64,000 nucleotides of DNA from Paracoccaceae bacterium (lineage in GTDB: Bacteria > Pseudomonadota > Alphaproteobacteria > Rhodobacterales > Rhodobacteraceae): assembly GCA_022843025.1 (NCBI GenBank), contig JALHOL010000003.1, positions 310,001 through 374,000 of the forward strand. Reading direction: 5' to 3'. Below, in pieces: positions 31,516 through 55,263 of the stretch; the stretch's first letter is position 1, and the number at the start of each line of letters is the position of its first letter. Below the pieces are notes generated by a model. That model searched no databases. It saw only the letters and a list, made by a program, of their open reading frames with translations, and was not told the DNA's origin. The translations under genes were made by a program, and so were the position numbers.

Positions 31516-31543
31516 TTGCCGATGCGTTCGGTCTTGCTATTTA
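31516..31543 (+). promoter_or_regulatory. Predicted promoter of the Mo-hydroxylase operon
   Basis: TTGCCG (31516-31521), 16 nt, TATTTA (31538-31543). The -10 element lies inside the candidate TetR operator, an arrangement expected for repression. Confidence 0.4.
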
Positions 31544-31557
31544 TCGTTCGATAGATA
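31538..31557. promoter_or_regulatory. Candidate TetR operator A (TATTTAT-N6-ATAGATA)
   Basis: A 20-bp dyad, TATTTAT-CGTTCG-ATAGATA, with one mismatch, 33 nt before the Mo-hydroxylase FAD subunit. It has the same arms and 6-nt spacing as dyads at 52993 and 55244, the last beside the TetR gene. Confidence 0.65.
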
Positions 31558-31590
31558 ATCTTTCCAGGAAGCGGGATCGGGGGCGGCGGC

Positions 31591-32406
31591 ATGAAGGCTT
31601 CACACTTCGACTATGTCCGCGTCCAGTCAGTCGAGGATGCGGTCCGGGTGATGGCGGATTCGGACGGCGAGGCGCGGTTTCTGGCCGGTGGGCAGAGCCT
31701 GATCCCTGCGTTGAACTTTCGGCTCGATCGTCCCGGCCTGCTGATTGACCTGAATGCGGTGACCGCGCTTTCGGGCATCCGGCGAGAAGGGGATCACATC
31801 GTTATCGGCGCCCTGACCCGCCATGCCGAGGTCGAGCGTCACCCTTTGATCGCCGCCCATCTGCCGCTGCTGGCCGAGGCCGTGCAGCATGTGGCCCATT
31901 CTGCCATCCGCAACCGGGGCACTTTTGGCGGCAGCCTTGCACTGGCTGATCCCGCGGCGGAGATGCCAGCCTGCGCGCTGGCGCTGCGGGCGGTGATCCA
32001 TGTGCAAGGGCCAAAGGGGCGGCGCAGTATTCCGGCTGATGCGTTTTTTGAAGGCAGCTATGCCACCGCGCTTGCGCCCGGCGAACTGCTGACCGAAGTG
32101 CATATCCCCCTGCCCGATCCGGCGGCGCGGCACGGCTTTGCCGAATTGACCCGGCGGCGGGGCGATTACGCGATGGCGGGGCTGGCGCTGATGGCGGGGC
32201 CAGAGGCGCGGGTGGTCTGGTTCGGTCTTGCCGACAGGCCGCTGCGCGATCTGGGGGCCGAGGCCGCACTGGCGCAGGGGCCGATTGCTGCTGCGGCGGC
32301 GGCGCTTGACGGGGCGGAGGTCTGGGGGGACCTGCACAATTCGGCCGAGACCAAGGTTCATCTGGCACGGGTCATGATCCGCCGCCTGCTGGAGCGCATG
32401 ACATGA
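31591..32406 (+). CDS. Molybdenum hydroxylase, FAD-binding medium subunit (CoxM-like)
   Basis: 271 residues with the two FAD-binding segments of the xanthine dehydrogenase family: AGGQSLIPALNFR and TFGGSLALADPAAEMP. It accepts electrons from the Fe-S subunit and passes them to an acceptor. It is first in an operon with the Fe-S and Mo subunits, with a 4-nt ATGA overlap to the next gene. A candidate TetR operator precedes it. Confidence 0.9.
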   Translation: MKASHFDYVRVQSVEDAVRVMADSDGEARFLAGGQSLIPALNFRLDRPGLLIDLNAVTALSGIRREGDHIVIGALTRHAEVERHPLIAAHLPLLAEAVQHVAHSAIRNRGTFGGSLALADPAAEMPACALALRAVIHVQGPKGRRSIPADAFFEGSYATALAPGELLTEVHIPLPDPAARHGFAELTRRRGDYAMAGLALMAGPEARVVWFGLADRPLRDLGAEAALAQGPIAAAAAALDGAEVWGDLHNSAETKVHLARVMIRRLLERMT

Positions 32407-32861
32407 GGGTTACCTTCCGCCTGAATGGCGAAGCCACGGTGATCGAGGCCGAACCGCGCCAAAGCCTCGCCGATGCGGTGCGCGCGGCGGGGTTCACTGG
32501 AACGCATCATGGCTGTGAACATGGGGTTTGCGGCGCCTGCACCCTGCGCGTGGACGGCGTGGCGGTGCGGGGATGCCTGATGCTGGCAGTGCAGGCAGAG
32601 GGGGCCGAAGTGGTGACGGTCGAGGGGTTGGATACGCCCGATCTGAAGGCGGCTTTTGTCCGCCACAATGCCCTGCAATGCGGATTTTGTACGCCGGGGA
32701 TGTTGATGACCGCAGCGGAATTGCTTGAATCCAGCCATGTGCCGGACCGCGCTGAAATCCGCGATCACCTGTCGGGCAATTATTGCCGCTGTACCGGCTA
32801 TCAGGCGATTGTCGATGCCGTGGAAGAGGTGGCGCAGGCGCGTCATGGGGCCAAGCCATGA
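32403..32861 (+). CDS. Molybdenum hydroxylase, [2Fe-2S] small subunit (CoxS-like)
   Basis: 152 residues. The plant-type cluster ligands are Cys38, Cys43, Cys46 and Cys58; the second cluster ligands are Cys93, Cys96, Cys128 and Cys130 (CGFCTPG and CRC). This is the standard eight-cysteine layout of xanthine dehydrogenase-type small subunits. It overlaps both neighbours by 4 nt. Confidence 0.95.
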   Translation: MRVTFRLNGEATVIEAEPRQSLADAVRAAGFTGTHHGCEHGVCGACTLRVDGVAVRGCLMLAVQAEGAEVVTVEGLDTPDLKAAFVRHNALQCGFCTPGMLMTAAELLESSHVPDRAEIRDHLSGNYCRCTGYQAIVDAVEEVAQARHGAKP

Positions 32862-37649: not shown

Positions 37650-38092
37650 GCGCGAGTTTTGCCGTTGCCCTTGCGGGGCTGATCGCCGCTGGCGCGGTTC
37701 TGGCCATGCAGGCCCCGATCAATGGGGCGCTGGCGCGTGCGGCGGGCGATGCAACCTTTGCCGCCTGCATCAATTTCTTGGTGGGCTTTCTCGTGATGGG
37801 CTGCGTCGTTGTGCTGCGCGGGGCATGGCCTGCGACCGGTTTCATCGCCAATGCCCCGTCCTGGGCCTGGATCGGGGGGGCGCTGGGGGGATTTTACATC
37901 ACGATGATGGTGATGATGATCCCCATCACCGGGGCGCAGACGGCGGCCATGGCAGGAATCCTTGGCCAGTTGGTTATGGCGATGCTGCTAGATCATTTCG
38001 GGGCTTTCGGCCTGCCTGTACAGCCGATCACATGGCAGCGGATCGCAGGCCTTGCGATGGTGGCGGGTGGCGTGCTGTTGTCGCGCGCCTAA
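37646..38092 (+). CDS. YdcZ/DMT family small membrane transporter
   Basis: 148 residues with about five hydrophobic helices; AMQAPINGALARAAG and the C-terminal GVLLSRA helix are typical of YdcZ-type half-size DMT proteins. GTG 37646 overlaps the previous stop (GTGA). It closes the plus-strand operon and overlaps the convergent deacetylase-like gene by 4 nt. Substrate unknown. Confidence 0.82.
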   Translation: MSASFAVALAGLIAAGAVLAMQAPINGALARAAGDATFAACINFLVGFLVMGCVVVLRGAWPATGFIANAPSWAWIGGALGGFYITMMVMMIPITGAQTAAMAGILGQLVMAMLLDHFGAFGLPVQPITWQRIAGLAMVAGGVLLSRA

Positions 38093-38961
38093 AGCCCCAT
38101 TTCCCCGCGATACCATCCGGCGATTTCCTCGCCCGTCATCCAGACCACGCCGTCATGGCTGCGGATATGGTCAATCGCGCGCTCCAGATAACCGATCCGA
38201 TGCGGCACGCCCGACAGATAGGGATGCAGGCTAATCGCCATCACCCGCGGCTGGGTTGCGCCGTCCTGATAAAGGCGGTCGAACTGATCGATGCAGCGGT
38301 TCATGAACCCATCCGACGGCAGGTGCTGCACCGCATGCACCACGATGTCATTGGTTTCCACTGTATAGGGCACCTGCAACATCGGCCCGTGCTTGGTGTG
38401 CAGAACCGAGGGCAGATCGTCGATGGGCCAGTTGGCCACATATTCGATCCCTGCCGCGCGCAGATGATCCAGAGTTGCTTCCGTTTCCGTCAGACCGGGG
38501 CTTTCCCAGCCCACGGGGGCCTTGCCGGTGAAGCCTTTGATCGCGGCCACCGTGGCATCAATCGCCGCGCGCTGGTCATCCAGTTGGTGCATCGGGCGCT
38601 GCACAAAGCCGTGGCCCATGAACTCCCACCCGGCGTCGCGGGCGGCTTCGGCGATGCGCGGATAGCTGTTCACGATATTGCCGTTCAGCGCCATCGTCGC
38701 CCGCAACCCGCGCGATTGCAGCGCATCGAGGATGCGCCAGAAGCCTACCCGCATCCCGTATTCATGCCAGGCCCAGTTGGGCAAATCGGGCTGCAACGGA
38801 TTGCCCATGGGCGGGGTCAGCACCTGCCGTGGCATCGGGCGTTCCAGCGCCCATTCTTCGATGTTCACGATGAACCAAACCGCCACACGCGCCCCGCCGG
38901 GGAGGGTGAGCTTTGGGCGGTCAGGGAACGCCTCATAGGGCGCGCGGTCGCTCATGCGCAT
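38089..38961 (-). CDS. Polysaccharide deacetylase family protein (PuuE/allantoinase-like)
   Basis: 290 residues of the NodB-type carbohydrate esterase 4 fold. The segment GWEFMGHGFVQRPMHQLD and the late SLHPYLSG motif resemble the PuuE-type allantoinase and N-carbamoyl/peptidoglycan deacetylase subgroup rather than chitin deacetylases. It would hydrolyse a C-N bond of an amide or cyclic ureide, which would fit N-heterocycle breakdown. The substrate is not known. Confidence 0.82.
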   Translation of the reverse strand: MRMSDRAPYEAFPDRPKLTLPGGARVAVWFIVNIEEWALERPMPRQVLTPPMGNPLQPDLPNWAWHEYGMRVGFWRILDALQSRGLRATMALNGNIVNSYPRIAEAARDAGWEFMGHGFVQRPMHQLDDQRAAIDATVAAIKGFTGKAPVGWESPGLTETEATLDHLRAAGIEYVANWPIDDLPSVLHTKHGPMLQVPYTVETNDIVVHAVQHLPSDGFMNRCIDQFDRLYQDGATQPRVMAISLHPYLSGVPHRIGYLERAIDHIRSHDGVVWMTGEEIAGWYRGEMGL

Positions 38962-39029: not shown

Positions 39030-40124
39030 TCAGAGCGACAGGCCCAAAAGCCGTGCGGCAGTGCCGCCGGCGACTTTGGCGGTGTCCTCGGTCGAAAGCC
39101 CGGCGCTGATCACATGTTCAACCGGATCGTAATCGCACATGTCATAGGGGTAGTCGGTCCCCATCACGATCTTGTCGGCCCCATAAACCTTGACCAGATA
39201 TTCCAACTGATGCGGGGTGAAGACCACATTGTCGAAATAGACCTTGCGCAGGTAATGCGTCGGCGGATGCGGCAGGTCGGCATGGCTGTCCTTGCGTGCG
39301 CCCCAGGCATGATCGATCCGGCCGGAATAGGAGGGCAGATAGCCGCCGCCATGCACTGCCAGAATCTTCAGATCCGGCATCCGCTCCAAAGTGCCGGAGA
39401 AGATCAGGTGATGCAGGGCAATCGTTGTTTCCAGCGGGTTCCCGATCACGTTCGAGAAGTAGTAATCATGGAAGCGGTCGCCATGGGTGAACCCGTTGGG
39501 ATGGATCATCACCAGTGCGCCCAACTCTTCCGCGCGCTTCCAGAAGGGCGCGAATTGCGGGGCGGCGAGTTCAGCGCCATGGACGTTCGTCAGCACCTCC
39601 ACGCCTTTGAACCCCAGCGTGTTCATGCAGTATTCAAGTTCTTTCACCGCCTCGGCTGCGTCCTGCATGGCCACGGTGCCAAGCCCGGCGAAGCGATCCG
39701 GGCGCTTGGCGACAAAGCCTGCAATCCCTTCGTTCACCATGCGGCTGGCCTTGACGGCATTTTCGACGGGGACAGAGTAATAGCATTGGAACGGCGGCGG
39801 GGCGACGACCTGAAAATCAATCCCCATCGCATCCAGCACGGCCAGGCGGTCATCCATATCGACCATGGCAACCTTGCGGTCGGCGTCCTGGGTCATGTTG
39901 ATCGACTTGGTTTCCGCATTGGAATGCCGGACCATGGCGATATCGGTCATCACCAGATGCGGGGCGATATAAGCGGCGGCCTCAGGGACGGCGACGTGTG
40001 CGTGAATATCCACCGTGGGCGTTTTCAAACGCTTTGCGCCGTCGGGCCGCTGGCGGGCAGCGGTCGGCCCGTAGCGGTTTACGTAATCGCCGCGATCGGC
40101 CGTATCTATCGTGCTATGAGACAT
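39030..40124 (-). CDS. ACMSD-type amidohydrolase/decarboxylase
   Basis: 364 residues of the amidohydrolase superfamily. Metal ligands can be placed at His41-x-His43 (DIHAH), His208 (IHPNG), His258 (VHGGG) and Asp324 (GTDYP). This arrangement matches aminocarboxymuconate-semialdehyde decarboxylase and related aromatic-acid decarboxylases, which remove CO2 from unsaturated or aromatic acids. An AAGGA Shine-Dalgarno precedes ATG 40124. It fits a ring-cleavage or aromatic-acid step in this island. Confidence 0.87.
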   Translation of the reverse strand: MSHSTIDTADRGDYVNRYGPTAARQRPDGAKRLKTPTVDIHAHVAVPEAAAYIAPHLVMTDIAMVRHSNAETKSINMTQDADRKVAMVDMDDRLAVLDAMGIDFQVVAPPPFQCYYSVPVENAVKASRMVNEGIAGFVAKRPDRFAGLGTVAMQDAAEAVKELEYCMNTLGFKGVEVLTNVHGAELAAPQFAPFWKRAEELGALVMIHPNGFTHGDRFHDYYFSNVIGNPLETTIALHHLIFSGTLERMPDLKILAVHGGGYLPSYSGRIDHAWGARKDSHADLPHPPTHYLRKVYFDNVVFTPHQLEYLVKVYGADKIVMGTDYPYDMCDYDPVEHVISAGLSTEDTAKVAGGTAARLLGLSL

Positions 40125-40207
40125 GGAACAGTCCTTTTGAGGGTCGGAGTAATGCCAATCGGACCGCCTGAAGGCGCAATTCCGTGGTGAAGATCAGGAT
40201 GCGTGAC

Positions 40208-40231
40208 GGGCAGCCCCGATGGGGACTGCCC
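40208..40231. terminator. Hairpin between the ABC binding protein and amidohydrolase genes
   Basis: GGGCAGCCCC (40208-40217) pairs with GGGGACTGCCC (40221-40231) with one bulged base. No T-tract follows on the minus strand, so it may only attenuate transcription or protect mRNA. Confidence 0.4.
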
Positions 40232-40239
40232 GCGCAGGG

Positions 40240-41274
40240 TTACTTGTTGGCTTCAAGCCAGGCTGCTGCCTCGGCCTCGACCTCGGCGCGGTCGAAATCA
40301 TTGGCGGCAGCGATGTAGGTGTCGTTGAGGAAGGTGGTCACATCCACCTGTTCCGGCACGGCACCTGACGAGACGAGACGCGGCTGAAGCGCGGTCCAGA
40401 CGTCGGATTGCAGATCACCCAGACGCTCGGTCGTCGATACGTTCATGCCGATGGACATATCGAGGAACAGTTGACCTGCCGCCTCGTTTTCCCATTCAGC
40501 CGGCACGCCCTTGCGCAGCGCCTGCGCCACCATTTCCGGGTTCACGGAAGCCACATACATCCCCTTGGACCAGGCCTTGAGGAAACCTTCGATGGCGTCA
40601 CGCTTCTCTTCGATGGTGTCGGCATTCACGGCGAAGGTGTTCGCCGGGCTAGCCAGCATTTCGGGCGGCGTGATCAGGCGGACGTTGATCCCATTGGCGT
40701 TGAGCGAGATCCAGTCCGGGGCCGCGCCGGAAATGGCCGAGACCTGACCGTCGCGGATCGCGGCGGCAAGCGTCGGACCGCTTTCACCCAAAACCACGGT
40801 TTCCACATCATCAATCGACTTGCCCACCACATCGAGCGATGCCTGAAGGAAGGCGCGGTCACGGTCAGAGACGAGACCAACAGTCGTGCCGGCAAGATCG
40901 TCAACCGAGTCATATTCGCTGGTATCCAGAACACCGATGGCTTCGGGCGCGTTCTGCATCACTTCATAGACGGTGTTGATATTGGCGCCGGCCAGCCGCG
41001 CGTTGATCGTTTCGACCGGGTCCAGCATGGCCAGATCGGCCTGCCCGTTCTGCACGAAGGCGACATAGGGGATCGAGGTGTCGGACGGCAGCAGGTTCAC
41101 CTCCACCCCTTCTTCGGCGAAGTAGCCAAGCGCCTCGGCCACGACGAGCGGAAAGAAGTTGGTCGACCGCGGCAGCGGGTTGATCATGTTGACCGGGGTC
41201 AACTCTTGCGCGACAGCGGGCACCGTTACCACCGCCAGCGCGGTGCTCAGCATCAAGGTCTTGAAGATCGTCAT
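40240..41274 (-). CDS. ABC transporter substrate-binding protein (NMT1/SsuA type)
   Basis: 344 residues with a signal peptide (MTIFKTLMLSTALAVVTVPA) and the NMT1/THI5-SsuA fold, as in binding proteins for sulfonates, taurine, thiamine precursors and aromatic carboxylates. A GGGAGG Shine-Dalgarno lies before the ATG. It is the last gene of an ATPase-permease-permease-binding protein operon and presumably supplies the island with its substrate. Confidence 0.88.
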   Translation of the reverse strand: MTIFKTLMLSTALAVVTVPAVAQELTPVNMINPLPRSTNFFPLVVAEALGYFAEEGVEVNLLPSDTSIPYVAFVQNGQADLAMLDPVETINARLAGANINTVYEVMQNAPEAIGVLDTSEYDSVDDLAGTTVGLVSDRDRAFLQASLDVVGKSIDDVETVVLGESGPTLAAAIRDGQVSAISGAAPDWISLNANGINVRLITPPEMLASPANTFAVNADTIEEKRDAIEGFLKAWSKGMYVASVNPEMVAQALRKGVPAEWENEAAGQLFLDMSIGMNVSTTERLGDLQSDVWTALQPRLVSSGAVPEQVDVTTFLNDTYIAAANDFDRAEVEAEAAAWLEANK

Positions 41275-41326
41275 TGGTCGTTCCTCCCAGAATTTTTGTT
41301 GATTTTTCGTGACTTGTTTTCGCCCC

Positions 41327-43816: not shown

Positions 43817-43880
43817 CGTGTTCACTCCCCGGTTCCTCCCGACACAGCCAGCCGATATGCCACGCTGCTTTGTTTCGACC

Positions 43881-43908
43881 TTGCCTGATATATCAGAGAT
43901 TCAGGCAA
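43881..43908. promoter_or_regulatory. Candidate GntR operator before the ABC operon
   Basis: Two nested dyads: TTGCCTGA-N12-TCAGGCAA (43881-43908) and the perfect palindrome CTGATATATCAG (43885-43896). It lies in the 111-nt gap between the GntR stop and the ABC ATPase start. Read on the minus strand, 13 of 14 bases match the motif in front of the GntR gene. Confidence 0.6.
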
Positions 43909-43927
43909 TAAAAAACGCAACCCCCAT

Positions 43928-44572: not shown

Positions 44573-44583
44573 TGATTCACACC

Positions 44584-44597
44584 TCTCTGATATTTCA
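44584..44597. promoter_or_regulatory. Second candidate GntR site, before its own gene
   Basis: TCTCTGATATTTCA lies 12-25 nt upstream of the GntR start and overlaps its Shine-Dalgarno region. It repeats the minus-strand motif at 43885-43898 with one change, suggesting autoregulation. Confidence 0.5.
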
Positions 44598-44645
44598 AGA
44601 AGCATGATTTGCGGAGATGCTTGCGTCAAGGCTGCTTTCATCGCC

Positions 44646-45650: not shown

Positions 45651-45663
45651 GGTCCCGTCCCCT

Positions 45664-46971
45664 TCATTCCGCCGCCGTGCCATAGGCCACGTTGCGCCCG
45701 CCATAACGGCGGACACGCACATTGGCCTGTTCGGCATGGCCGACAAATCCTTCCAGCATGCACAGGCGCGAACAGGCCTCGCCCACCAAGGCGCTGGCCT
45801 CATCCGTCAAGACGCGCTGATAGGTGCAGGTCTTCAGGAACTTGCCCACCCACAGCCCGCCGGTATAGCGCGCAGCCCCCCGCGTCGGAAGCGTGTGGTT
45901 CGTGCCGATCACCTTGTCGCCGTATGCCACGTTCGTGCGCGGCCCCAGAAACAGCGCGCCGTAATTGGTCATGTGGGTCAGGAAGTAATCCGGGTCGCGC
46001 GTCATCACCTGCACATGTTCCGAAGCGATGCGGTCGGCCTCGGCCACCATCTCGTCCAGACTGTCGCAAACGATAACCTCGCCGTAATCCTTCCAGGCTT
46101 GCGCGGCGATCCTAGCCGTCGGCAAGATGGCAAGCAGGCGTTCCACCTCGGCCATCGTGGCACGCGCCAGCGCCTCGGAATTCGTCAGCAGCACGGCGGG
46201 GCTGGTCGGCCCATGCTCGGCCTGACCCAGCAGATCGGTGGCGCAAAGCTCCGCATCCACGCTGTCATCCGCGATCACCAGCGTTTCCGTGGGCCCAGCG
46301 AACAGATCGATCCCCACCCGCCCGTAAAGCTGCCGCTTGGCTTCGGCTACAAAGGCATTGCCCGGCCCCACTAGCATATCGACGGGCGCGATGCTTTCCG
46401 TGCCCAGCGCCATGGCCCCCACCGCCTGCATTCCGCCCAGCACGTAAATCTCATCCGCGCCCGCCATATGCATCGCGGCCACGATGGCCGGATGCGGTGC
46501 CCCATGGAACGGCGGGGCCGAGGCGATGACTCGCTTTACTCCCGCAACCTTGGCCGTCACCACCGACATATGGGCCGAGGCGACCATGGGATACTTACCC
46601 CCCGGCACATAGCAGCCCACCGAATTCACCGGGATATTGCGATGCCCCAGCACCACGCCGGGCAGGGTTTCCACCTCGATATCCTGCAAGGCGGCGCGCT
46701 GATGCCGGGCAAAATTGCCGACCTGTTCCTGCGCGAAACGGATATCCTCCAGATCACGGCGCGACACTTGCGATATGGCCTTTTCAATCTCCACCTCTGA
46801 CAGGCGGAACTGCGCAGGCTCCCAGCCATCGAACTGCTTTGACAGGGCGCGCACGGCAGCATCGCCCTCGGCCCCAATGCGGGCGAGCGTCTCTTCGACC
46901 GTGCGGCGCACAGCGGCATCGGCCTCGGCCCGCACTTCGGCGCGCATCGCTGTTTTCAGATGGCGTGGCAT
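45664..46971 (-). CDS. Histidinol dehydrogenase family protein (HpsN-like)
   Basis: 435 residues of the HisD fold: [21 protein letters not shown] and the zinc-site [11 protein letters not shown]. The QAEHG variant, and its location in a catabolic cluster without other his genes, suggest a sulfopropanediol 3-dehydrogenase (HpsN)-like enzyme oxidising an alcohol to an acid with NAD, not histidine synthesis. The substrate remains inferred. Confidence 0.82.
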
Positions 46972-46986
46972 GGCCCTGTCTCCCTG

Positions 46987-47718
46987 TTATCGCGCGGTCC
47001 AGCCGCCATCGATCCGCAGGCTGTCGCCCGTGATCATCCGCGCCCCGTCTGACGCCAGAAACACCACGCCCGCCGCCACATCTTCGGGCCGGGCCAGTTC
47101 GCGCATCGGGATCATGTCCAGCACGCTGTCGCGAAAGGCGGCATCGGCGAACATCGGTTCGGTCATCGGCGTCAGCACAAAGGTCGGCGCCACCGACACC
47201 ACCCGCACCCCCGATGGCGCCAATTCCACGGCCATCGCCTTTGTCAGGCCTTCGATTGCATGTTTGGACATGCAGTAAACCGTGCGCTTGGCCGCCCCCA
47301 CATGCCCCATCTGCGAGGACATGTTGATGATCACCCCGCGCCCCGCACGCACCATCGCCCGCGCGCCCGCCTGCGCCACCTTATAGGCCGAGCGGATGTT
47401 CAACCCGATCAGATGATCCAGCGTCGCATCATCCATATCGACCATCAGCATGGGCCGATTGCCGCCCGCGTTGTTCACCAGAATATCCAGATCCGTCATT
47501 ACGGCGATGGCGTCATGCAGGCTTGCGTCCTGCACATCGCCCACCAGTGCGGTGATCTGCCCCGGTGCCTCGGCGGCCAAAGCGTCCAGATCGGCCCGCG
47601 TCCGCGCCACCGCCGTCACCCGCGCGCCCGCAGCAACCAGTGCCAGCGCAATGGCCCGGCCAAGGCCACGCCCCGCCCCCGTGACCACCGCATGCCGCCC
47701 TGCCAGCATCCGGGTCAT
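46987..47718 (-). CDS. Short-chain dehydrogenase/reductase
   Basis: 243 residues of a classical SDR: TGAGRGLG cofactor loop, NNAGG, the catalytic Ser (MSSQMGHV) and the YCMSK Tyr-Lys pair. It oxidises or reduces an alcohol/ketone with NAD(P). ATG 47718 overlaps the upstream GlcG-like stop by 4 nt (ATGA). Confidence 0.9.
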   Translation of the reverse strand: MTRMLAGRHAVVTGAGRGLGRAIALALVAAGARVTAVARTRADLDALAAEAPGQITALVGDVQDASLHDAIAVMTDLDILVNNAGGNRPMLMVDMDDATLDHLIGLNIRSAYKVAQAGARAMVRAGRGVIINMSSQMGHVGAAKRTVYCMSKHAIEGLTKAMAVELAPSGVRVVSVAPTFVLTPMTEPMFADAAFRDSVLDMIPMRELARPEDVAAGVVFLASDGARMITGDSLRIDGGWTAR

Positions 47719-48149
47719 GGTTTGCCGCAATCGCCGGTCAGGCCAGCCAGACCGATGCCTTCCATGGCACAAAGCTCGTCCATATCACCGGTATCGCCGC
47801 TGACGCCCACCGCGCCTATGATCCGCCCCGCCGCATCCCTCAGCAGCACGCCGCCCGGATTGGGCACCATACGCCCGCCCGAGGCTGCGGCCAGCGCGGT
47901 AAAGAAATTGGGGTTGTCCTGCGCGCGGGCAAAGAGTGTCCGGCTGGGCAACCCCATGCCAAGCGCGCCATAGGCTTTGCCATGCGCAATCTCACAGCGC
48001 AAAATCCCGCTGTTGTCGGACCGTTTCATCACCACGACATGGCCGCCTGCATCCAGCACGACCACGGTCAGCGGCTGCGCGCCCCTGCGATGTCCGGCGC
48101 TCAGTGTGCCGTCTGCGATCACTTCCGCCTCAGCCAATGTCACGCTCAT
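47715..48149 (-). CDS. GlcG/HbpS family protein
   Basis: 144 residues of the GlcG/HbpS/PduO-C fold; VVVLDAGGHVVVMKRSDN and the GVSGDTGDMDE end are characteristic. Members often sit in catabolic operons (glycolate, propanediol) and some bind heme or corrinoid; the role here is unknown. It overlaps both neighbours by 4 nt. Confidence 0.85.
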   Translation of the reverse strand: MSVTLAEAEVIADGTLSAGHRRGAQPLTVVVLDAGGHVVVMKRSDNSGILRCEIAHGKAYGALGMGLPSRTLFARAQDNPNFFTALAAASGGRMVPNPGGVLLRDAAGRIIGAVGVSGDTGDMDELCAMEGIGLAGLTGDCGKP

Positions 48150-49036
48150 GGCGTCTCCTCCGGTCCGGGGGCCATTTGTTGCAGCACTGCGAAGAGCGCC
48201 GCCGTATCTTCCTTGTGCCGTCCCTGCGCCAGGGCCGCCGTATAGAAGGGCAGGCTCGCCGCCATCAGCGGCACCGGACAGGCCACGTCGCGCGCGTGAT
48301 CCATGATCAGCGCGAGGTCTTTTTGGTAGACATCCATCTTCATCGTCGCAGGCTCATAACGGCCTTCGATCATGAGGGGGCCGCGCACCTCGAACATCCG
48401 CGAATTCCCGGCTCCAGACCGGATCGCCTCATAGACCATGCCAAGATCAAGCCCCGACTTTTCCGCCAAAAGCAGCGCCTCGGCGGCGGCCAGGTTGTGG
48501 ATCGTCACCAACAGGTTCGCCACCAGCTTCAGCTTCATGCCTGCGCCGAACGGCCCGACATGCCGGATATCCCGCGCCAGTGCGGCGAATACCGGGTGCA
48601 GCACAGCCACATCCGCCGCCTCGCCACTGGCAAACACCACCAGATCGCCCGTCGCCGCCTGCGCCCCTGTGCCCGAAACCGGGCAATCGAGCAGCGCCAC
48701 GCCCACCTCGGCGCAGGACGCCCGCGCGGCCTCTTTCGCCTCCAGCGGCAAGGTGCCCATCTCGGCAATCACCATGCCCACGCGCAGGTGGGGCCGCATC
48801 TCGGCCACCACGGCCTCCAGCGCTTTGACCGATGGCAGTGCCATCAGGATCACATCTGCCCCCTGCGCCACTTCGGCCGCCGTGGCGCAGCCGCGCCCAC
48901 CAAGACCGTCCAGCGCCATCCGCGCCGCCGGCACAGGATCAAAGCCCAGCACCGTGGTCCCGGCGCGGCGCAGGTTGGTGGCATAAGCCATCCCCATGAT
49001 GCCCAACCCGATCAGGCCCACGCGCGGCAGGGTCAT
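48146..49036 (-). CDS. 3-hydroxyisobutyrate dehydrogenase family NAD(P)-dependent oxidoreductase
   Basis: 296 residues of the beta-hydroxyacid dehydrogenase family: N-terminal GLIGLGIMGMAYATNL, the DCPVSGTGAQA substrate loop and the catalytic Lys in GAGMKLKLVANLL. It oxidises a short beta-hydroxy acid or reduces a semialdehyde. ATG 49036 overlaps the hydrolase stop by 4 nt. Confidence 0.88.
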   Translation of the reverse strand: MTLPRVGLIGLGIMGMAYATNLRRAGTTVLGFDPVPAARMALDGLGGRGCATAAEVAQGADVILMALPSVKALEAVVAEMRPHLRVGMVIAEMGTLPLEAKEAARASCAEVGVALLDCPVSGTGAQAATGDLVVFASGEAADVAVLHPVFAALARDIRHVGPFGAGMKLKLVANLLVTIHNLAAAEALLLAEKSGLDLGMVYEAIRSGAGNSRMFEVRGPLMIEGRYEPATMKMDVYQKDLALIMDHARDVACPVPLMAASLPFYTAALAQGRHKEDTAALFAVLQQMAPGPEETP

Positions 49037-49824
49037 GCGCTGGCCTCCAGCCAATCGGCAAGGGCGGCGTGAAACGCCTCGGGGTCTTCCATATTCGGGA
49101 TATGCGCCAGCCCTTCCAGCACGATCAGCCCGGCGCCAGGTGTGGCCGCCGCCATCGCCGCCATCGCCTCTTTCGGCGCGCCCATGTCCTCGGCCCCGAC
49201 CAGATACTGAACCGGCGGCTGCATCGATCCCAGATGGCGCAGGTAATCCAGCCCCATCAGGGCATTGGCGCAGCCAATGTATCCCGCAGCCGACGTGGCG
49301 CTGATCATCGCCGCCGCCCGCGCCTTGGGCTCTTCGGCACAGGCTGGCGTGAACCAGCGCGCCAAGGTGCCATCCACCAGTGCGGCGGTGCCATTCGCCT
49401 GCACCACGGCAATCCGGTCGATCCAGCCTTGCACGAAAGGGGGCGGATTGTCGGCCCGCGCATCGCAGACCACCATCCGCCGCACCCGGCCCGGATGCGC
49501 GAGGCCGAAACCCAGCGCCGTCATCCCGCCCAGAGACAGCCCGATCACATCTGCCTGTTCTGCGCCCACATGATCGAGCACCGCCAGCATATCGGCGACC
49601 AGCAGATCAAAGTCATAGGCCCCGTCCGAGGCCGTGCTTTGCCCATGCCCGCGCGTGTCATAGCGCACCACCCGGTGGCTGCGCGTCAGCACCTCCATCT
49701 GGTCGTCCCACATGGTCAGATCGGCCGCCAGCGAGTTTGACAGCAAAAGCCAAGGCTTGCCCGCCGATCCATCCACCTGCGCGGACAGCGTGGCCCCGGC
49801 CACCGGAACCGCGATGCGCGTCAT
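49033..49824 (-). CDS. Alpha/beta hydrolase (3-oxoadipate enol-lactonase-like)
   Basis: 263 residues with the nucleophile elbow GLSLGG (Ser97), oxyanion segment LLSNSLAADLTMWD, and a C-terminal His in LAHIPNMEDP. The SLAADLTMWDDQ and DTRGHGQS segments resemble PcaD-type enol-lactonases of aromatic catabolism. It overlaps the next gene by 4 nt on both sides, placing it tightly behind the LLM monooxygenase. Confidence 0.85.
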   Translation of the reverse strand: MTRIAVPVAGATLSAQVDGSAGKPWLLLSNSLAADLTMWDDQMEVLTRSHRVVRYDTRGHGQSTASDGAYDFDLLVADMLAVLDHVGAEQADVIGLSLGGMTALGFGLAHPGRVRRMVVCDARADNPPPFVQGWIDRIAVVQANGTAALVDGTLARWFTPACAEEPKARAAAMISATSAAGYIGCANALMGLDYLRHLGSMQPPVQYLVGAEDMGAPKEAMAAMAAATPGAGLIVLEGLAHIPNMEDPEAFHAALADWLEASA

Positions 49825-50918
49825 TCCGCAGCCTCGGCCACGGCGGAGTTCACCATCGGCAGCACCTTTTCCGCCAGCAGCACCTTGGACCGCCGCGCCA
49901 GCGCCACATCCGTCCAGTCATGCCCGGCGTAAAGCAGCGTGCCGAAGGGGCCGACCTGATCGCGGAAGGCCAGCAGTTCATCGGCTACTTTGTCGGGCGT
50001 GCCCCAAATCACCAGACGGTCCAGCACGTAATCCAGCGTCACATCATCATCCGACATGTTTGGATCATCCTTGAACAGGTTGGACCGCCCGTTCTTCTTC
50101 AGCTTGGTCACCAGCGATTTGTAGTAATGCACATAGGGCGACCCCGCCCCCAGCGCGTATTCCCGCGCGTTGTTCAGGTCATCGGCGACGAAGATGCTTT
50201 TCGCCACGCGCCAGTTGCCAAAATCCACCGCCCGCCCGCCCTCGGCGCAGCCCGCAGCATAGCTTTCACGATGCGTGGCCACCCATTTCGGCATCAGGAA
50301 GTTGGCCGAGATCGGATCCCACCCACGCGCCGCCGCCGCCGTCACCCCCTTGGAAAACGGCGCAACCGCCGTCACCACGATGGGCGGATGCGGGCGCTGC
50401 AAGGGCTTGCCGATCTTGCCCTGCCCGATCTCGCCCATCAGCGTCCGCTCGGTCGAAATGTTCCAGTATTTGCCCTTCAGGTTATAGGGCGCTTCCTGCG
50501 TCCACAGCGCCAGCACCATGTCGATGGCTTCAAGGAACATGGCGTTACGGTCATTGTCGAGGTTGCCAAAAATCTCGGCATCCGACAGCAGGCCGCCCGG
50601 GCTGATCCCGAAGTTGAACTTACCGTCCAGCAGGTGATCCAGCATCGCCAACTGGCCGGCCACATGCGCCGGATGGGCGTTGGGCAGGTTCACCGTGCCG
50701 GTGCCCATGCGGATATTCTTCACCCGCCCCGCCAGCGTCGCGATGAACAAGGCGCAGGAGGTGATGTTTTCCGCAAGGTCGGTGACATGCTCGCCGACAT
50801 AGCCTTCGGTAAAGCCCAGCTCATCGGCCAGAAGGAAGGCTTCCTGATCCTCACGCAGACACTGACGCCAATCCTTGGTCAACGGGTGGATCGGCATGGT
50901 GAAAAAGCCAAGCTGCAT
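49821..50918 (-). CDS. LLM-class flavin-dependent monooxygenase
   Basis: 365 residues of the bacterial luciferase-like TIM-barrel family (MQLGFFTMPIHP, LGFTEGYVGEH, GTGTVNLPNAHP). These two-component oxygenases use reduced FMN from a separate reductase to hydroxylate or oxidatively open their substrate. A GGAG Shine-Dalgarno precedes ATG 50918. A flavin reductase gene at 52041-52568 shares its promoter box, so it is the likely partner. Confidence 0.88.
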   Translation of the reverse strand: MQLGFFTMPIHPLTKDWRQCLREDQEAFLLADELGFTEGYVGEHVTDLAENITSCALFIATLAGRVKNIRMGTGTVNLPNAHPAHVAGQLAMLDHLLDGKFNFGISPGGLLSDAEIFGNLDNDRNAMFLEAIDMVLALWTQEAPYNLKGKYWNISTERTLMGEIGQGKIGKPLQRPHPPIVVTAVAPFSKGVTAAAARGWDPISANFLMPKWVATHRESYAAGCAEGGRAVDFGNWRVAKSIFVADDLNNAREYALGAGSPYVHYYKSLVTKLKKNGRSNLFKDDPNMSDDDVTLDYVLDRLVIWGTPDKVADELLAFRDQVGPFGTLLYAGHDWTDVALARRSKVLLAEKVLPMVNSAVAEAAE

Positions 50919-50966
50919 CGACGGTCTCCACTGCGGTGTGGGGGTCAAGCTAGGCCGCGCCAGACT

Positions 50967-50985
50967 TCAGCGGAAACGATAATAT
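50967..50985 (-). promoter_or_regulatory. 19-nt promoter/operator box before the LLM operon
   Basis: Minus-strand ATATTATCGTTTCCGCTGA matches 17 of 19 bases of a plus-strand box at 51972-51990 and lies 48 nt before the LLM start; the other is 50 nt before the flavin reductase start. A TGAT-N7-ATCA dyad lies just upstream. Probably a LysR-controlled promoter element. Confidence 0.6.
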
Positions 50986-50998
50986 ATGATGGCTGCTA

Positions 50999-51940
50999 TC
51001 AGATTTTTCGATTGGGCTCAGATGGCCCGATCAAGGACGTCCATTCTGCGTCGGCCCGGCGATATTCCTCTTCCAGATAACGCAGGAAGGCGGCGGCTGC
51101 CGGGCTCATCGCTTTGCGGGCAGGTTCAACCACCACATAACTGACCGTCAGTTCCGGTCCGGTGAGGGGATGCAGCCAACGATCACGTCCGTCGATATCC
51201 TTGCGGCAGATGGTGGCGGGCAGCACTGTGGCGTAATCGGACGTTGCCACCAGTTCCAGCGTGGCAAACATCGCGTCCATGTCGATGATCTTGCCGACCG
51301 TCAACCCGTTTGAGGCGATGAAATCATCCAGCCGGTCCCGGCGCACATTGCCCTTGGCGGGCAGGACCAGCCGCAGGGGTGTGACATCAGCCAGCCTCAC
51401 CGGCGTCAGATGCGGGATCGGTCCGCCGGGGCGGCAGACCAGAAATTCGCGATCCGTGCCCAGGTGGCGGCTGCGCATCCCCGTGCGCCCGCCATCCTGC
51501 GGCACCACGACGAAATCCGCCTCACCTTCGGCCAGACGATCCATCAGCGCGGCGGAATAAGCCTCGACCACCGTCACATCGACATTTGGATGATCGGCAA
51601 GAAAGCGGCTGAGCGTCGGGGCCAACACGCCGCGCGTGAAGGTGGGCATCAGGCCGATCCTGACCGGCCCGCTTATCGTGCCGGACAGGTTGCGCAATTC
51701 TGCCTCGGCCCCTTCCAGACGGCGCAGGATATCAACGGCGGTTTCGTAAAGGCGCTGTCCGGCATGCGTGGGGGTAACCCCCCGGGCGGAGCGGTCAAAC
51801 AACGTGGTGCCCAGCGTTTCTTCCAACTGCTTGATCTGCATCGACAAGCCAGATTGCGTGGCGTTCAGGCGCGTGGCGGCGCGGTTGAACGACCCTTCCT
51901 CGAAGATGCCCACGAAGGTCGACAATTGGCGAAAGTTCAT
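50999..51940 (-). CDS. LysR family transcriptional regulator
   Basis: 313 residues: N-terminal winged helix (MNFRQLSTFVGIFEEGSFNR; ATQSGLSMQIKQLEE recognition region) and a periplasmic-binding-protein-like effector domain. It is transcribed away from the flavin reductase gene, with an LTTR-like dyad between them. ATG 51940 has AAGGG 8 nt upstream; GTG 51949 is alternative. Confidence 0.92.
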   Translation of the reverse strand: MNFRQLSTFVGIFEEGSFNRAATRLNATQSGLSMQIKQLEETLGTTLFDRSARGVTPTHAGQRLYETAVDILRRLEGAEAELRNLSGTISGPVRIGLMPTFTRGVLAPTLSRFLADHPNVDVTVVEAYSAALMDRLAEGEADFVVVPQDGGRTGMRSRHLGTDREFLVCRPGGPIPHLTPVRLADVTPLRLVLPAKGNVRRDRLDDFIASNGLTVGKIIDMDAMFATLELVATSDYATVLPATICRKDIDGRDRWLHPLTGPELTVSYVVVEPARKAMSPAAAAFLRYLEEEYRRADAEWTSLIGPSEPNRKI

Positions 51941-51953
51941 GGGTATCACCCTT

Positions 51954-51979
51954 AATGATATCTATGGACAGATATTATT
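51954..51979. promoter_or_regulatory. LTTR-like dyad between lysR and flavin reductase
   Basis: AATGATATC-N8-GATATTATT is an inverted repeat with one mismatch in nine pairs, of the ATC-N-GAT type bound by LysR proteins. It lies 14-39 nt before the lysR start and 62 nt before the reductase start. Confidence 0.5.
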
Positions 51980-51990
51980 GTTTCCGGTGA
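51972..51990 (+). promoter_or_regulatory. 19-nt promoter/operator box before the flavin reductase
   Basis: ATATTATTGTTTCCGGTGA, 50 nt before ATG 52041; 17 of 19 bases match the box before the LLM operon at nearly the same distance. It overlaps the right arm of the LTTR dyad. Confidence 0.6.
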
Positions 51991-52040
51991 TTGCCCGCCA
52001 CGCCTATTTTTGCTGTGTCAAACATCAGGGCGGGTCGCGC

Positions 52041-52568
52041 ATGAACATCCCCAATTCCTTTGTTGCCGATGGCATGGCAGGCGATCTGCGCCCCTGCGAT
52101 CCGGCCAGCTATCGCGATGTGATGGGGGCCTTTGCCACGGGCGTCACAGTGATGACCCTTGGCACCGCCGATGGCTTTCGGCTGGGCGTGACGGCGAGTT
52201 CTTTCAACACCGTCTCGCTCGACCCGCCGCTGATCTTGTGGAGCTTGGCGCTCAAGGCGCCCAGTCTGGCCGAATTCAGGCGGCATGACCATTTCGCCGT
52301 GAACGTGCTTGCCGCCGATCAGAAGGATATCGCCCTGCAATTCGCACGGCCCTCGGAGGACAAGTTCGCAGGCATACCAACCGCGCAAGGCACGCTGGGC
52401 CTGCCCCTGATCGTGGGCGCGCTGGCCCATATCGAATGCCGGACGGTGGCCCGCTATCCGGGCGGCGACCATGAGATCATACTGGGCGAGGTTGTCAGCC
52501 TGCGCCGCGCCGATCGTGCGCCGCTGGTGTTTCAAAGCGGCGCCTTCCATGGCCTGACCCGCGCTTAA
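52041..52568 (+). CDS. Flavin reductase (HpaC/FMN-reductase-like domain)
   Basis: 175 residues of the flavin-reductase-like split barrel (MGAFATGVTVMTLGTADG, GVTASSFNTVSLDPPLILW, HDHFAVNVLAADQ). Such proteins reduce FMN or FAD with NAD(P)H for two-component monooxygenases. The only apparent client nearby is the LLM enzyme, with which it shares a promoter box. It is convergent with the cupin gene, overlapping by 4 nt. Confidence 0.88.
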   Translation: MNIPNSFVADGMAGDLRPCDPASYRDVMGAFATGVTVMTLGTADGFRLGVTASSFNTVSLDPPLILWSLALKAPSLAEFRRHDHFAVNVLAADQKDIALQFARPSEDKFAGIPTAQGTLGLPLIVGALAHIECRTVARYPGGDHEIILGEVVSLRRADRAPLVFQSGAFHGLTRA

Positions 52569-52963
52569 TCCAGCGGCAGAGGGCGGTTCGGGCTCAGCTT
52601 GTTCTCGACTGTGGTAAAGGTGAGCACGGTGTTGCCGATGTTTTCCAGATCATGCGTCATGAACTGGCCCGCCGCAAAATGCATGTGCCTGGTATCGCCG
52701 GGGGCATAGTCCATCTCCACCACACGGCCATCGGGATTGCGCGACCGCGCCCGCCCGTGGGAGGTGGCCACCCAGAAATAGTTCAGCACATGGGTATGGA
52801 ACGGCATCCGATCCCCCGGCGCGATTTCGATCAGCCAGATGCGGTATTCGGATGTTTCATCCACCAGACGCGAACCGACGCGGCCGTTGGCGCGCGCGCC
52901 AGCCGCCTCGGCCACCAACGCAGGCGACCAGTGCGGCGCTTGGGGATCAGCTTGGGCGGACAT
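52565..52963 (-). CDS. Cupin-domain protein
   Basis: 132 residues, a single-domain cupin with a PFHTHVLNYFWV metal motif and a second DTRHMHF/TH segment. It could be a small metal-dependent isomerase, dioxygenase or ligand-binding protein; the sequence does not decide. It is divergent from the FAD monooxygenase, with a candidate TetR operator between them. Confidence 0.75.
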   Translation of the reverse strand: MSAQADPQAPHWSPALVAEAAGARANGRVGSRLVDETSEYRIWLIEIAPGDRMPFHTHVLNYFWVATSHGRARSRNPDGRVVEMDYAPGDTRHMHFAAGQFMTHDLENIGNTVLTFTTVENKLSPNRPLPLD

Positions 52964-52975
52964 TGCAGCTCTCCG

Positions 52976-53012: not shown

Positions 53013-53036
53013 ACGAAATCTGGCAAGGAAGTCTGG

Positions 53037-54251
53037 ATGTCTCGGCGTGCGGTCATCTGTGGCGGTTCTATCGGCGGGCTGTTCTGCGCCGCCTTTCTGC
53101 GCAAGGCCGGTTGGGACACGGTTGTTCTGGAACGGTCGCGCAGCGAACTGTCGGGGCGCGGCGCGGGGATCGTCACCCATGACCTTCTGCTGGATCTGAT
53201 TGCCCGCGCCGGGGCGCCAATCACCGAGTTGGGCGTGCAGGTGCAGGATCGGGTGGCCTTTGATTTGGCAGGTGATCGCGTCGCCACCCTGCCTTTGCCG
53301 CAGATCGTCACCTCATGGGACCGCGTTCATTCTCTGTTGCGCGCATTGGTGCCGGATGGTGGCTATCGCCTCGACAAGGCGGTGGCGCGCTATGATGACC
53401 ATGGCGACAGCGTCAAGCTGACCTGCGAAGATGGCAGCCAGTTCGAGGCTGACGTGCTGATCGGGGCGGATGGCTTCCGCTCTGCCCTGCGCGGACAGAT
53501 GCAGCCAGAGGTGCAGCCCGTCTATTCCGGCTATGTCGTCTGGCGCTGTCTGGCCCGTGAAGCGGACCTGCATCCCGACCTTCGCGATCAGGTGTTCGAC
53601 AGTTTCGGGTTTTTCCTGCCGCAGGGCACGCAGATCCTTGGGTATCCGATTGCAGGGCCCGGCAATGACCTGCGGCCGGGACACCGGCGATACAACTTTG
53701 TCTGGTATGCCCCGGTTGAGGCGGGCGAACTGGCCGACATGCTCACCGATGCAAAGGGCATCCATCACCCTGTCACCATCCCGCCGCCACTGGTGCGTGA
53801 TGATGTGCTGGACCGGATGCAGGGTTTTGCCCGCAACCATCTGGCCAAACCGTTCCTTGAGGTTCTCGCTCGGTCCGAGCGGCCCTTCTTCACCCCGATC
53901 TACGACCATCTCTCGCCCGTCTTTGCCGCCGGACGCGTGGCGCTTGCCGGGGATGCTGCCTGTGTCGCGCGGCCCCATGTCGGCATGGGGGTGACCAAGG
54001 CCGCCGCTGATGCCGAGGCGTTGGCGCGGCACCTGACGACCGGAACGGTGACGCAGGCGCTGGCAGCCTATGGCACCGAACGCCACGCCGCCGCAGCACT
54101 GGCCCATGCGACGGCGCAACGACTGGGCCGCTATATCTTTGCAGGGCCGGATCAGAGCAGCAACCAAGACGGCCGCAACAACCCCAACCTTGCCCGCATC
54201 ATGGCCGAGACGGCGGTAGTCCCCGCCGCCCCGGATTATCCCGTTACTTGA
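53037..54251 (+). CDS. FAD-dependent aromatic monooxygenase (2,6-dihydroxypyridine 3-hydroxylase-like)
   Basis: 404 residues of class A flavoprotein hydroxylases: CGGSIGG (residues 8-14) for FAD, IGADGFRS, and the second FAD motif LAGDAACVARPHVGMG. The YPIAGPGN and YNFVWYAP segments and the RPH-x-G loop resemble 2,6-dihydroxypyridine 3-hydroxylase, an enzyme of nicotine breakdown, more than PHBH. The likely role is ortho-hydroxylation of a hydroxy-aromatic or hydroxypyridine. AAGGAA precedes ATG 53037. Confidence 0.85.
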   Translation: MSRRAVICGGSIGGLFCAAFLRKAGWDTVVLERSRSELSGRGAGIVTHDLLLDLIARAGAPITELGVQVQDRVAFDLAGDRVATLPLPQIVTSWDRVHSLLRALVPDGGYRLDKAVARYDDHGDSVKLTCEDGSQFEADVLIGADGFRSALRGQMQPEVQPVYSGYVVWRCLAREADLHPDLRDQVFDSFGFFLPQGTQILGYPIAGPGNDLRPGHRRYNFVWYAPVEAGELADMLTDAKGIHHPVTIPPPLVRDDVLDRMQGFARNHLAKPFLEVLARSERPFFTPIYDHLSPVFAAGRVALAGDAACVARPHVGMGVTKAAADAEALARHLTTGTVTQALAAYGTERHAAAALAHATAQRLGRYIFAGPDQSSNQDGRNNPNLARIMAETAVVPAAPDYPVT

Positions 54252-55203
54252 TGGCCTGCGGGTTGATCGGCGACCCGCATCCCCCCGGCACGTTCATCGG
54301 CGGCGCGCAGAAGAAGAATTCGTAAACCCCATCCGCCGCGCAATCCTCGGCCAGTTCCTTGACGAAAAAGATTTCGCCCATCGTGATCCCGATGGCCGGG
54401 ATCACCACCCAATGCCAAGGCTGGTTCGCCTCATCCGTTTCATTCGGACGCACTTCGCAGCCCCAGGTATCGGCGCAGATCGCCGCGATATCGTGTTGGC
54501 GGATCCAGTAGGCCGTCTCGAAGGCAAGGCCCGGCGCATCGCCGCCCGCATAGCCGGTCCAGTCACCTTTGGCGAGGCAACGCTCCTGATGGCCGGTGCG
54601 CACGATCACGAAATCGCCGCGCCGGATGTCCACCCCCTGTGCCGCCGCCGTGGCATCAAGATCGGCGTTGGTGATCGGATAGCCATCGGGCAGGGAATCG
54701 ACCCCCTTCCACCGCGCCACATCCAGCAGGACGCCGCGCCCCACCATCTTGTCGCGGGTGTGTTCGATGCCGTTCTTCTTGGCCCCCTGCACGTCGACCA
54801 GCGTGGCCGGGTAGCCGTTCCACATCTTGTCATCGAGAAAGATATGCGCCAGCGCGTCCCACTGCGTTGAACACTGCATCGGCAGATTGATGGCATCATC
54901 GGCATAGCGCAGATAGGCCTTGCCATCCCCATCTTGCACGCCCGCCACCGCATCCGTGCCGGTCGCCAGCATCTGGTGCAGCGGGTTCCAGCGCCCCCCG
55001 AACAACCCCGACTGGATCTTTTCATCCAACGGCAGACCCAGCGCGAATGTCTTGCCGCGCTTGATCAGCTTTGCCGCGGCGGCCACATCTTCGGGCGTGA
55101 CTAGGTTCAGGGTTCCGATCTGATCCTCCGGCCCCCAGCGACCCCAGTTCGACAGTTCCTGCGCCGCCTCATAGATCTTGGCGCGATTGACCTTCATTGC
55201 CAT
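54244..55203 (-). CDS. Cyclase family hydrolase (kynurenine formamidase/isatin hydrolase-like)
   Basis: 319 residues of the metal-dependent cyclase family that includes kynurenine formamidase and isatin hydrolase, which open or hydrolyse amides and lactams. The metal segment is altered: STQWDALAH replaces the usual HxGTHxDxPxH, keeping Asp and the last His. ATG 55203 has GAGGAG 5 nt upstream. It overlaps the FAD monooxygenase 3' end by 8 nt and is divergent from TetR. Confidence 0.85.
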   Translation of the reverse strand: MAMKVNRAKIYEAAQELSNWGRWGPEDQIGTLNLVTPEDVAAAAKLIKRGKTFALGLPLDEKIQSGLFGGRWNPLHQMLATGTDAVAGVQDGDGKAYLRYADDAINLPMQCSTQWDALAHIFLDDKMWNGYPATLVDVQGAKKNGIEHTRDKMVGRGVLLDVARWKGVDSLPDGYPITNADLDATAAAQGVDIRRGDFVIVRTGHQERCLAKGDWTGYAGGDAPGLAFETAYWIRQHDIAAICADTWGCEVRPNETDEANQPWHWVVIPAIGITMGEIFFVKELAEDCAADGVYEFFFCAPPMNVPGGCGSPINPQAIK

Positions 55204-55243
55204 CCTCACTCCTCCCGCTATTCTTGCGGCGCTGCCGCGTTGT

Positions 55244-55263
55244 TATTTATCGCACGATAAAGA
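55244..55263. promoter_or_regulatory. Candidate TetR operator C (TATTTAT-N6-ATAAAGA)
   Basis: TATTTAT-CGCACG-ATAAAGA, one mismatch, lies between the cyclase start (40 nt) and the TetR start (58 nt). Beside the regulator gene, it is the site that suggests TetR binds the whole set. The inner CG..CG bases match those of site A. Confidence 0.7.

Follow-up and report, generated by a model that had tools for sequence, protein, structure and literature searches.

A TetR-family regulator and a rare 22-bp palindrome predicted to join three promoters of a probable pyridine-type catabolic locus in a Paracoccaceae bacterium

Can one regulator govern catabolic genes that lie 24 kb apart? The question is raised by a 64,000-nucleotide stretch of DNA from a Paracoccaceae bacterium (assembly GCA_022843025.1, contig JALHOL010000003.1, positions 310,001 to 374,000; hereafter, the window), in which an earlier note had recognized three similar dyads and had assigned them to a TetR regulon spanning a molybdenum (Mo) hydroxylase operon, a divergent cupin/flavin adenine dinucleotide (FAD) monooxygenase pair, and a divergent cyclase/tetR pair. 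We find that control of these genes by one TetR is strongly supported by a matrix built from relatives, by the link between recognition helix and site, by conservation, and by covariation. The sites, their rarity, their place before the same genes in other bacteria, their association with one TetR type, and the homology of three enzymes to those of the nicotine plasmid pAO1 can be read directly from the sequences. The best explanation, and in our judgment a probable one, is that the TetR protein represses three promoters for catabolism of a pyridine-like ring. The features on which this proposal is built are as follows.

31537..31558, no strand: putative TetR operator 1, CTATTTATCGTTCGATAGATAA, 32 bp 5' of the ATG of the Mo-hydroxylase FAD subunit gene; 31.3 bits
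52992..53013, no strand: putative TetR operator 2, TTATTTATAATATGATAAATAA, between the divergent cupin and FAD monooxygenase genes; 38.1 bits
55243..55264, no strand: putative TetR operator 3, TTATTTATCGCACGATAAAGAA, between the divergent cyclase and tetR genes; 33.9 bits
55322..55981, plus strand: TetR/AcrR-family regulator, 219 amino acids from a GTG start; PF00440 at 43.2 bits (cut-off 24); recognition helix TQPLLYRYF
31591..32406, plus strand: Mo-hydroxylase FAD subunit; PF00941
32403..32861, plus strand: Mo-hydroxylase [2Fe-2S] subunit; PF01799, PF00111
32858..35206, plus strand: Mo-hydroxylase molybdopterin subunit, closest among solved structures to quinoline 2-oxidoreductase; 36% identity to NdhC and 31% to KdhC of pAO1
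52565..52963, minus strand: small cupin-like protein, 132 amino acids, start codon inferred; closest among solved structures to a cupin type-2 protein (E 1e-9), with no Pfam match
53037..54251, plus strand: FAD monooxygenase, PRK07236 subfamily, closest among solved structures to 2,6-dihydroxypyridine hydroxylase; 33% identity to DhpH of pAO1
54244..55203, minus strand: PF04199 cyclase-family protein, 81.9 bits against a gathering score of 23.1; motif QCSTQWDALAH

The three dyads are present at 31538-31557, 52993-53012, and 55244-55263, the coordinates given in the earlier note. Their arms, described there as identical, form a perfect TATTTAT/ATAAATA pair only at 52993-53012; each of the other two carries one mismatch, the dyad at 31538-31557 ending in ATAGATA and that at 55244-55263 in ATAAAGA. 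The full site is a 22-bp palindrome, TTATTTATC-N4-GATAAATAA, and is thus longer than the 20-bp dyad first noted.

A genome-wide scan, which the earlier note had recommended, found the motif to be rare and associated with these genes. The window held 3 matches at up to 3 mismatches, against 0.06 expected, and 0 of 100 shuffles attained a count of 3. The same threshold gave 10 places in the 3.9-Mb genome against 5 for the backward control, and the three window dyads were the only places with at most 1 mismatch. A refined pattern, TATTTATC-N4-GATAAATA, again at up to 3 mismatches, occurred at 4 genome places and its backward control at none. The short core TTATC-N4-GATAA is not specific, occurring at up to 1 mismatch at 9 places (the three dyads included) versus 11 for the control. 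A matrix of 40 sites drawn from 18 of 21 stretches of relatives (L071-L091, with L082, L083, and L086 left out), with no site from the window, ranked the three dyads at the top with 38.1, 33.9, and 31.3 bits; the next score was 13.1 bits, and the best among 30 simulated windows was 15.5.

We then located the sites relative to genes in 94 stretches totaling 1.73 Mb, using 41 query genes, estimated gene starts, and a convention that a site between divergent genes counts for both. This set drops seven stretches that share contigs with others (L116, L123, L125, L128, L133, L140, and L175), and L188 replaces L089 for plasmid pRL8. The 94 stretches are not 94 independent genomes, since some are neighboring stretches of one genome and near-identical loci remain; sequence is shared among L118, L119, and L120, between L141 and L142, between L157 and L169, and between L158 and L186. 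Within this set, 136 of 148 sites preceded the estimated start of a query-set gene by no more than 350 bp, none lay more than 30 bp inside any recognized gene, and the reversed consensus was not found. Upstream sites numbered 51 for the cyclase (52 stretches with the gene), 25 for DctQ (28), 25 for DctP (29), 24 for the Mo-hydroxylase FAD subunit (62), 16 for the FAD monooxygenase (24), and 14 for the cupin (26). For tetR, recognized in 90 stretches, 17 sites lay within 350 bp upstream; the window has such a site between tetR and the cyclase gene. The median distance from site centre to gene start was 39 bp for the cyclase and 40 bp for the FAD monooxygenase.

In family relatives the sites likewise precede the Mo-hydroxylase and cyclase genes and the pair formed by FAD monooxygenase and cupin. 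The motif is conserved at orthologous loci, the second comparison that had been suggested. Some relatives also carry a site between a tripartite ATP-independent periplasmic (TRAP) transporter solute-binding gene and an operon of TRAP permease and luciferase-like genes. More widely, the same site precedes related genes in many marine and plant-associated bacteria. The distance of the Mo-hydroxylase operon from its partners, which had been remarked on, holds for the 24-kb span here and is a local arrangement; the same targets are clustered within about 10 kb in some relatives, L072, L075, and L079 among them. Six loci of Afipia and one of Bradyrhizobium (L150, L165, L166, L172, L173, L178, and L181) also have strong dyads (16 to 17 of 18 positions) near position 7600, at a distance of about 2.4 kb from tetR and more than 350 bp from any query-set gene start.

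Presence of the site follows this type of TetR. Among 295 sampled genomes of the family, 30 had a TetR match at E of 1e-15 or below, and 60 had a site at up to 2 mismatches. Helix class was taken from the best TetR match of each genome, and second tetR matches in five genomes were left unclassified. All 15 genomes with a TQPL[LI]YRYF-type TetR carried the site, compared with 2 of 15 with another helix type and 43 of 265 with no TetR match (15/15 versus 45/280; Fisher p 9e-12). From 14 of the family genomes, 18 stretches were obtained, and 13 of them, representing 12 genomes, held a site of at least 15/18. Genomes G035 and G279 had none at that level in their stretches, and both encode a TetR with phenylalanine at residue 64 (F64). 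In several class members outside the family, the backward control of the 3-mismatch pattern was as frequent as the pattern itself or nearly so, and genome-wide counts from them are thus hardly informative. We also used named loci, the best 80 of 540 relatives by TetR protein similarity. A site of at least 15/18 was found in 64 of these 80, or 57 of 73 when 7 already-used loci are set aside, and it lay within 1.3 kb of tetR in 37 of 80 (30 of 73 new ones) against 0 of 400 simulated segments.

A finer link between regulator and operator emerged at residue 64. Among 39 TetRs compared, 31 had a nearby countable site, and 8 scoring below 12/16 were not counted; one sequence (L021 and L097) was counted twice. 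The 80 named loci were excluded, because they were fetched with a pattern containing QPLLYRYF and so cannot test covariation between tyrosine and phenylalanine. Tyrosine (Y64) paired with T at base 6 in 33 of 38 half-sites (A in 3, C in 1, and G in 1), and F64 paired with G in 23 of 24 (T in 1). The F64 TetRs form one clade of 11 plus one other, and so the pattern is consistent with, rather than proof of, a change in specificity. In this sister F64 group (L021, L022, L025-L030, L032, L036, L083, and L097), a shifted dyad with TGATC-type half-sites lies beside tetR. One member is Dinoroseobacter shibae plasmid pDSHI05 (L097, 9957-14452; also sampled as G035), and both there and in G279 (L083) a Mo-hydroxylase operon is divergent from tetR, which apparently marks a parallel regulon with another operator.

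The regulator itself has an N-terminal TetR_N helix-turn-helix (PF00440). A profile of its orthologues was closest, over positions 14-183 of 217, to the solved structure of OpaR, with HapR and kin near; LuxR, HapR, SmcR, and OpaR are TetR-family master regulators of Vibrio quorum sensing. LuxR is described as binding a 21-bp dyad around 4 nonspecific base pairs, with a critical G at position 5 (PMC2628434), and the window operator resembles such a site in being a dyad of about 21 to 22 bp with a 4-bp centre. Unlike HapR, the window protein scored only 33.3 bits against the cut-off of 350 for the NCBIfam equivalog model NF040929. Its gene also differs from luxR and hapR in lying in a catabolic locus with three strong genome sites, and base 6 of the half-site is T, not G. 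A LuxR-family consensus matches the operator at 14 of 18 positions; it is by way of that consensus that we equate the G at position 5 of the LuxR dyad with base 6 of the 22-bp site.

What, then, do the genes do? The earlier note knew of no described pathway with this set, a statement that proved too strong, since three of the enzymes (Mo-hydroxylase, FAD monooxygenase, and cyclase) have homologues on the nicotine plasmid pAO1 of Paenarthrobacter nicotinovorans. The plasmid carries kdhABC, dhpH, a PF04199 cyclase gene ('PKC'), and cupin, XdhC, and MoaA genes together, and the window resembles it in clustering a homologous Mo-hydroxylase, a 2,6-dihydroxypyridine-hydroxylase-type FAD monooxygenase, and a PF04199 cyclase, at identities of just 31 to 36%. 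The two cyclases align over their full length, with 33% identity over 304 positions. Unlike pAO1, the window has an additional luciferase-like monooxygenase and a PuuE-like hydrolase, and relatives have a TRAP transporter. The pAO1 cyclase has been proposed to open the pyridine ring to give ketoglutaramate, and the same paper describes another close system, the step by HpoH when Rhodococcus rhodochrous PY11 degrades 2-hydroxypyridine (PMC6214936). By analogy with pAO1, the window set most likely functions as does the lower pyridine (2,3,6-trihydroxypyridine) branch of nicotine breakdown, with catabolism of a pyridine-like ring as its likely role. The pAO1 record (L210, 30748-34536) names its NdhABC genes as subunits of '2,6-dihydroxypyridine 3-hydroxylase', which looks like a labeling slip for nicotine dehydrogenase, the name used in PMC6214936.

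The cyclase departs from its family in its presumed metal ligands. We take the metal-ligand motif of PF04199 enzymes of the kynurenine formamidase/isatin hydrolase type to be HxGTHxD. The window protein has QCSTQWDALAH where the pAO1 enzyme has HTGTHIDSLNH, so that both ligand histidines of that motif are replaced. Among 52 tblastn hits, 48 had QxSTQWDALxH, 2 had QVGTQWDALCH, and 2 kept the second histidine alone. The amide or lactam hydrolysis first assigned to this protein is uncertain, because those two presumed ligand residues are replaced.

A homarine operon has been described in marine bacteria, and homarine and trigonelline were considered as substrates. Among the open-access papers listed, no title or abstract opening named these genes, a search by the annotation words of the gene set found no open-access paper, and the search listings, including one for nicotinate and Rhodobacterales, gave no substrate for the pathway. 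The locus resembles a known type, the TetR-controlled catabolic regulon, in that its palindrome stands before several catabolic transcription units and has been conserved along with these.

Plasmid-borne relatives extend the comparison. In three Rhizobium and Ancylobacter plasmids, a TetR gene is divergent from a cyclase gene with the dyad between them, matching at 16/18, 15/18, and 15/18. One such region is the cox/cyclase region of Rhizobium johnstonii 3841 pRL8 (pRL80021-38), whose TetR is 43% and whose cyclase is 74% identical to those of the window. It shares with the window the divergent TetR and cyclase genes and a nearby Mo-hydroxylase, and with pAO1 the presence of XdhC and MoaA genes; dyads precede the cyclase (16/18), XdhC (15/18), and moaA (14/18) genes. 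In contrast to the window, the fetched region has neither a FAD monooxygenase nor a luciferase-like gene in its annotation. The gene pRL80036 ('formylkynurenine formamidase') was reported to be 6- to 10-fold up in the pea rhizosphere and the next gene, encoding a short-chain dehydrogenase/reductase (SDR), 2.5- to 3.5-fold; the CoxMSL and CoxG genes were pea specific, and coxG and coxM mutants were less competitive (PMC3333776). That paper reads the region as a carbon monoxide (CO) dehydrogenase-like enzyme plus formylkynurenine formamidase, and its section on the region names no regulator or inducer. In our reading pRL80036 is the cyclase gene preceded by the dyad, the old gene tags being mapped to present ones by order and product name.

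Between the Mo-hydroxylase and cupin genes of the window lie further genes, among them a PcaD/RutD-like hydrolase and several dehydrogenases.

38089..38961, minus strand: polysaccharide-deacetylase-fold hydrolase, allantoinase PuuE-like; no dyad before the gene here
39030..52568, no strand: catabolic block without a dyad of its own here; gene content from Pfam, NCBIfam, and PDB searches

The block encodes an amidohydrolase_2 protein, an NMT1-type ATP-binding cassette (ABC) transporter, GntR, GFO/IDH/MocA, HisD-like, SDR, HbpS, and HIBADH-like proteins, an alpha/beta hydrolase, a luciferase-like monooxygenase, LysR, and a flavin reductase. In an Aurantimonadaceae bacterium (L158, cut by a contig end), Aureimonas fodinaquatilis (L160), and Antarcticirhabdus aurantiaca (L186), the same block (about 39 to 52.5 kb in the window) surrounds tetR and two dyads. 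This arrangement connects the block with the same pathway, even though the block lacks its own dyad in the window. The PuuE-like gene follows the luciferase-like gene in some relatives, in an operon with its own dyad. Downstream of tetR, at 56015-63952, are a solute-binding/ABC transporter set and two glutamine-synthetase-like genes, the first of which came nearest, below cut-off in both cases, to the NCBIfam models for glutamate--ammonia ligase and gamma-glutamylputrescine synthetase. The solute-binding and permease genes were recognized, in the fetched flanks of the 80 named loci, solely in the closest relative, L108.

Taken together, the locus suggests the following scheme, in which we infer physical binding, repression over activation, the nature of inducer and substrate, and the sequence of reactions. 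TetR (55322) would bind the 22-bp palindrome, as a dimer or pair of dimers, at three promoters, that of the Mo-hydroxylase operon and those of the two divergent pairs (cupin/FAD monooxygenase and cyclase/tetR). It would most likely repress all of these genes, tetR among them, and leave the DNA once a substrate or intermediate of the pathway binds to the protein. The Mo-hydroxylase would hydroxylate a pyridine-like N-heteroaromatic beside the ring nitrogen, the FAD monooxygenase would add a second hydroxyl group to the ring, and the cyclase, perhaps with the cupin protein, would open it, the whole resembling the lower pyridine pathway of nicotine breakdown.

The substrate could instead be a purine-like ring of the methylxanthine type, a proposal that we regard as unlikely yet worth setting out. 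The window does contain a PuuE-like hydrolase, and a Methylobacterium locus places a homologous TetR, Mo-hydroxylase, and FAD monooxygenase beside uraH and uraD. However, no uraH- or uraD-type gene was found among the 40 window open reading frames (ORFs) scanned, the solved structure closest to the FAD monooxygenase is that of 2,6-dihydroxypyridine hydroxylase, this monooxygenase scores 83 bits against a cut-off of 500 with the urate hydroxylase HpxO model, and the cyclase aligns with its pAO1 counterpart from end to end. The uraH/uraD locus, on Methylobacterium radiotolerans pMRAD01 (L093, 3937-15754), has an NCS1 nucleobase transporter gene upstream and suggests a purine or methylxanthine route. 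Another Methylobacterium record, from coffee root, has TetR, Mo-hydroxylase, and FAD monooxygenase genes close together.

The sign of control has also to be considered. TetR might bind the dyads and activate, in the manner of LuxR, a distant relative that does so at some promoters; the nearest solved relatives are OpaR, HapR, and kin, and LuxR is described as both activating and repressing (PMC2628434). The earlier note had two dyads overlapping -10 boxes. Our consensus scan upheld one overlap, at 52993 on the minus strand (cupin side); a -10-like box near 55244 does not overlap the dyad, and none was found at 31538. A consensus promoter therefore overlaps the dyad at only one of three sites, although a sigma-70 consensus scan is weak evidence in either direction. 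Against activation, the sites stand very near the start codons, at the median distances given above, which fits a repressor, and we consider activation improbable.

It is very unlikely that the dyads belong to the LysR (50999) or GntR (43931) protein, with tetR a mere neighbor. Both genes are indeed present in the block, but site presence tracks the TetR type across genomes, and the operator letter tracks the TetR recognition helix. Moreover, while 64 of the 80 TetR-fetched loci have the site, LysR was recognized in 25 and GntR in 6 of them within the fetched flanks. Chance AT-rich palindromes, which AT-rich promoter regions in a GC-rich genome and a short core no commoner than its control might seem to allow, were rejected with near certainty on the strength of the genome rarity, the ranking by the relatives' matrix, near-zero controls, conservation across orders, and the 136 of 148 sites upstream of query-set genes.

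Several observations nevertheless weigh against TetR repression of a pyridine pathway as we propose it. On the regulatory side, 12 of the 148 sites precede no query-set gene, and 16 of the 80 named loci lack a site at 15/18, their best being 14/18 in 10, 13/18 in 5, and 11/18 in 1 (reversed-control maxima in those loci, 10 to 13). With a site near tetR in just 37 of the 80, autoregulation does not seem to be general. One of the 15 family genomes with a TQPL[LI]YRYF-type TetR (G243) has its two sites on a contig other than that of its tetR match, 8 of the 39 TetRs in the covariation set, all Y64, have no site good enough to count, and the covariation between residue and base rests on approximately one or two evolutionary changes. 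In pRL8, coxG and coxM have no upstream site of at least 12/18, though they are also pea induced. As for the enzymes, the pAO1 cupin gives no match to the window cupin, and 50 of the 52 cyclase hits lack both histidines of the presumed ligand motif. The pAO1 cluster has an omega-amidase of the carbon-nitrogen hydrolase family, and no nitrilase-fold omega-amidase of that family was found among the 40 window ORFs scanned, a scan that left aside the first 31 kb and the rest of the genome.

One joint reading of all this, which we offer tentatively, is of a regulon common to Rhodobacterales and Hyphomicrobiales, under a catabolic relative of the quorum-sensing masters of Vibrio, that might serve a pathway for an abundant marine and plant metabolite of the pyridine type. 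Its ring-opening cyclase would have a rewired active site, residue 64 (Y64 or F64) would set the operator type, and the pea-rhizosphere fitness genes of pRL8 would belong to it rather than to a CO dehydrogenase. Whatever the fate of that reading, the rare operator offers a handle, from sequence alone, on the genes of a predicted ring degradation pathway across many alphaproteobacteria. The Y64/F64 system makes it simple to test how the DNA preference of a TetR shifts with its recognition helix, and the operator links the pathway to a fitness effect in the plant rhizosphere for which the section of the paper on this region gave no biochemical basis (PMC3333776).

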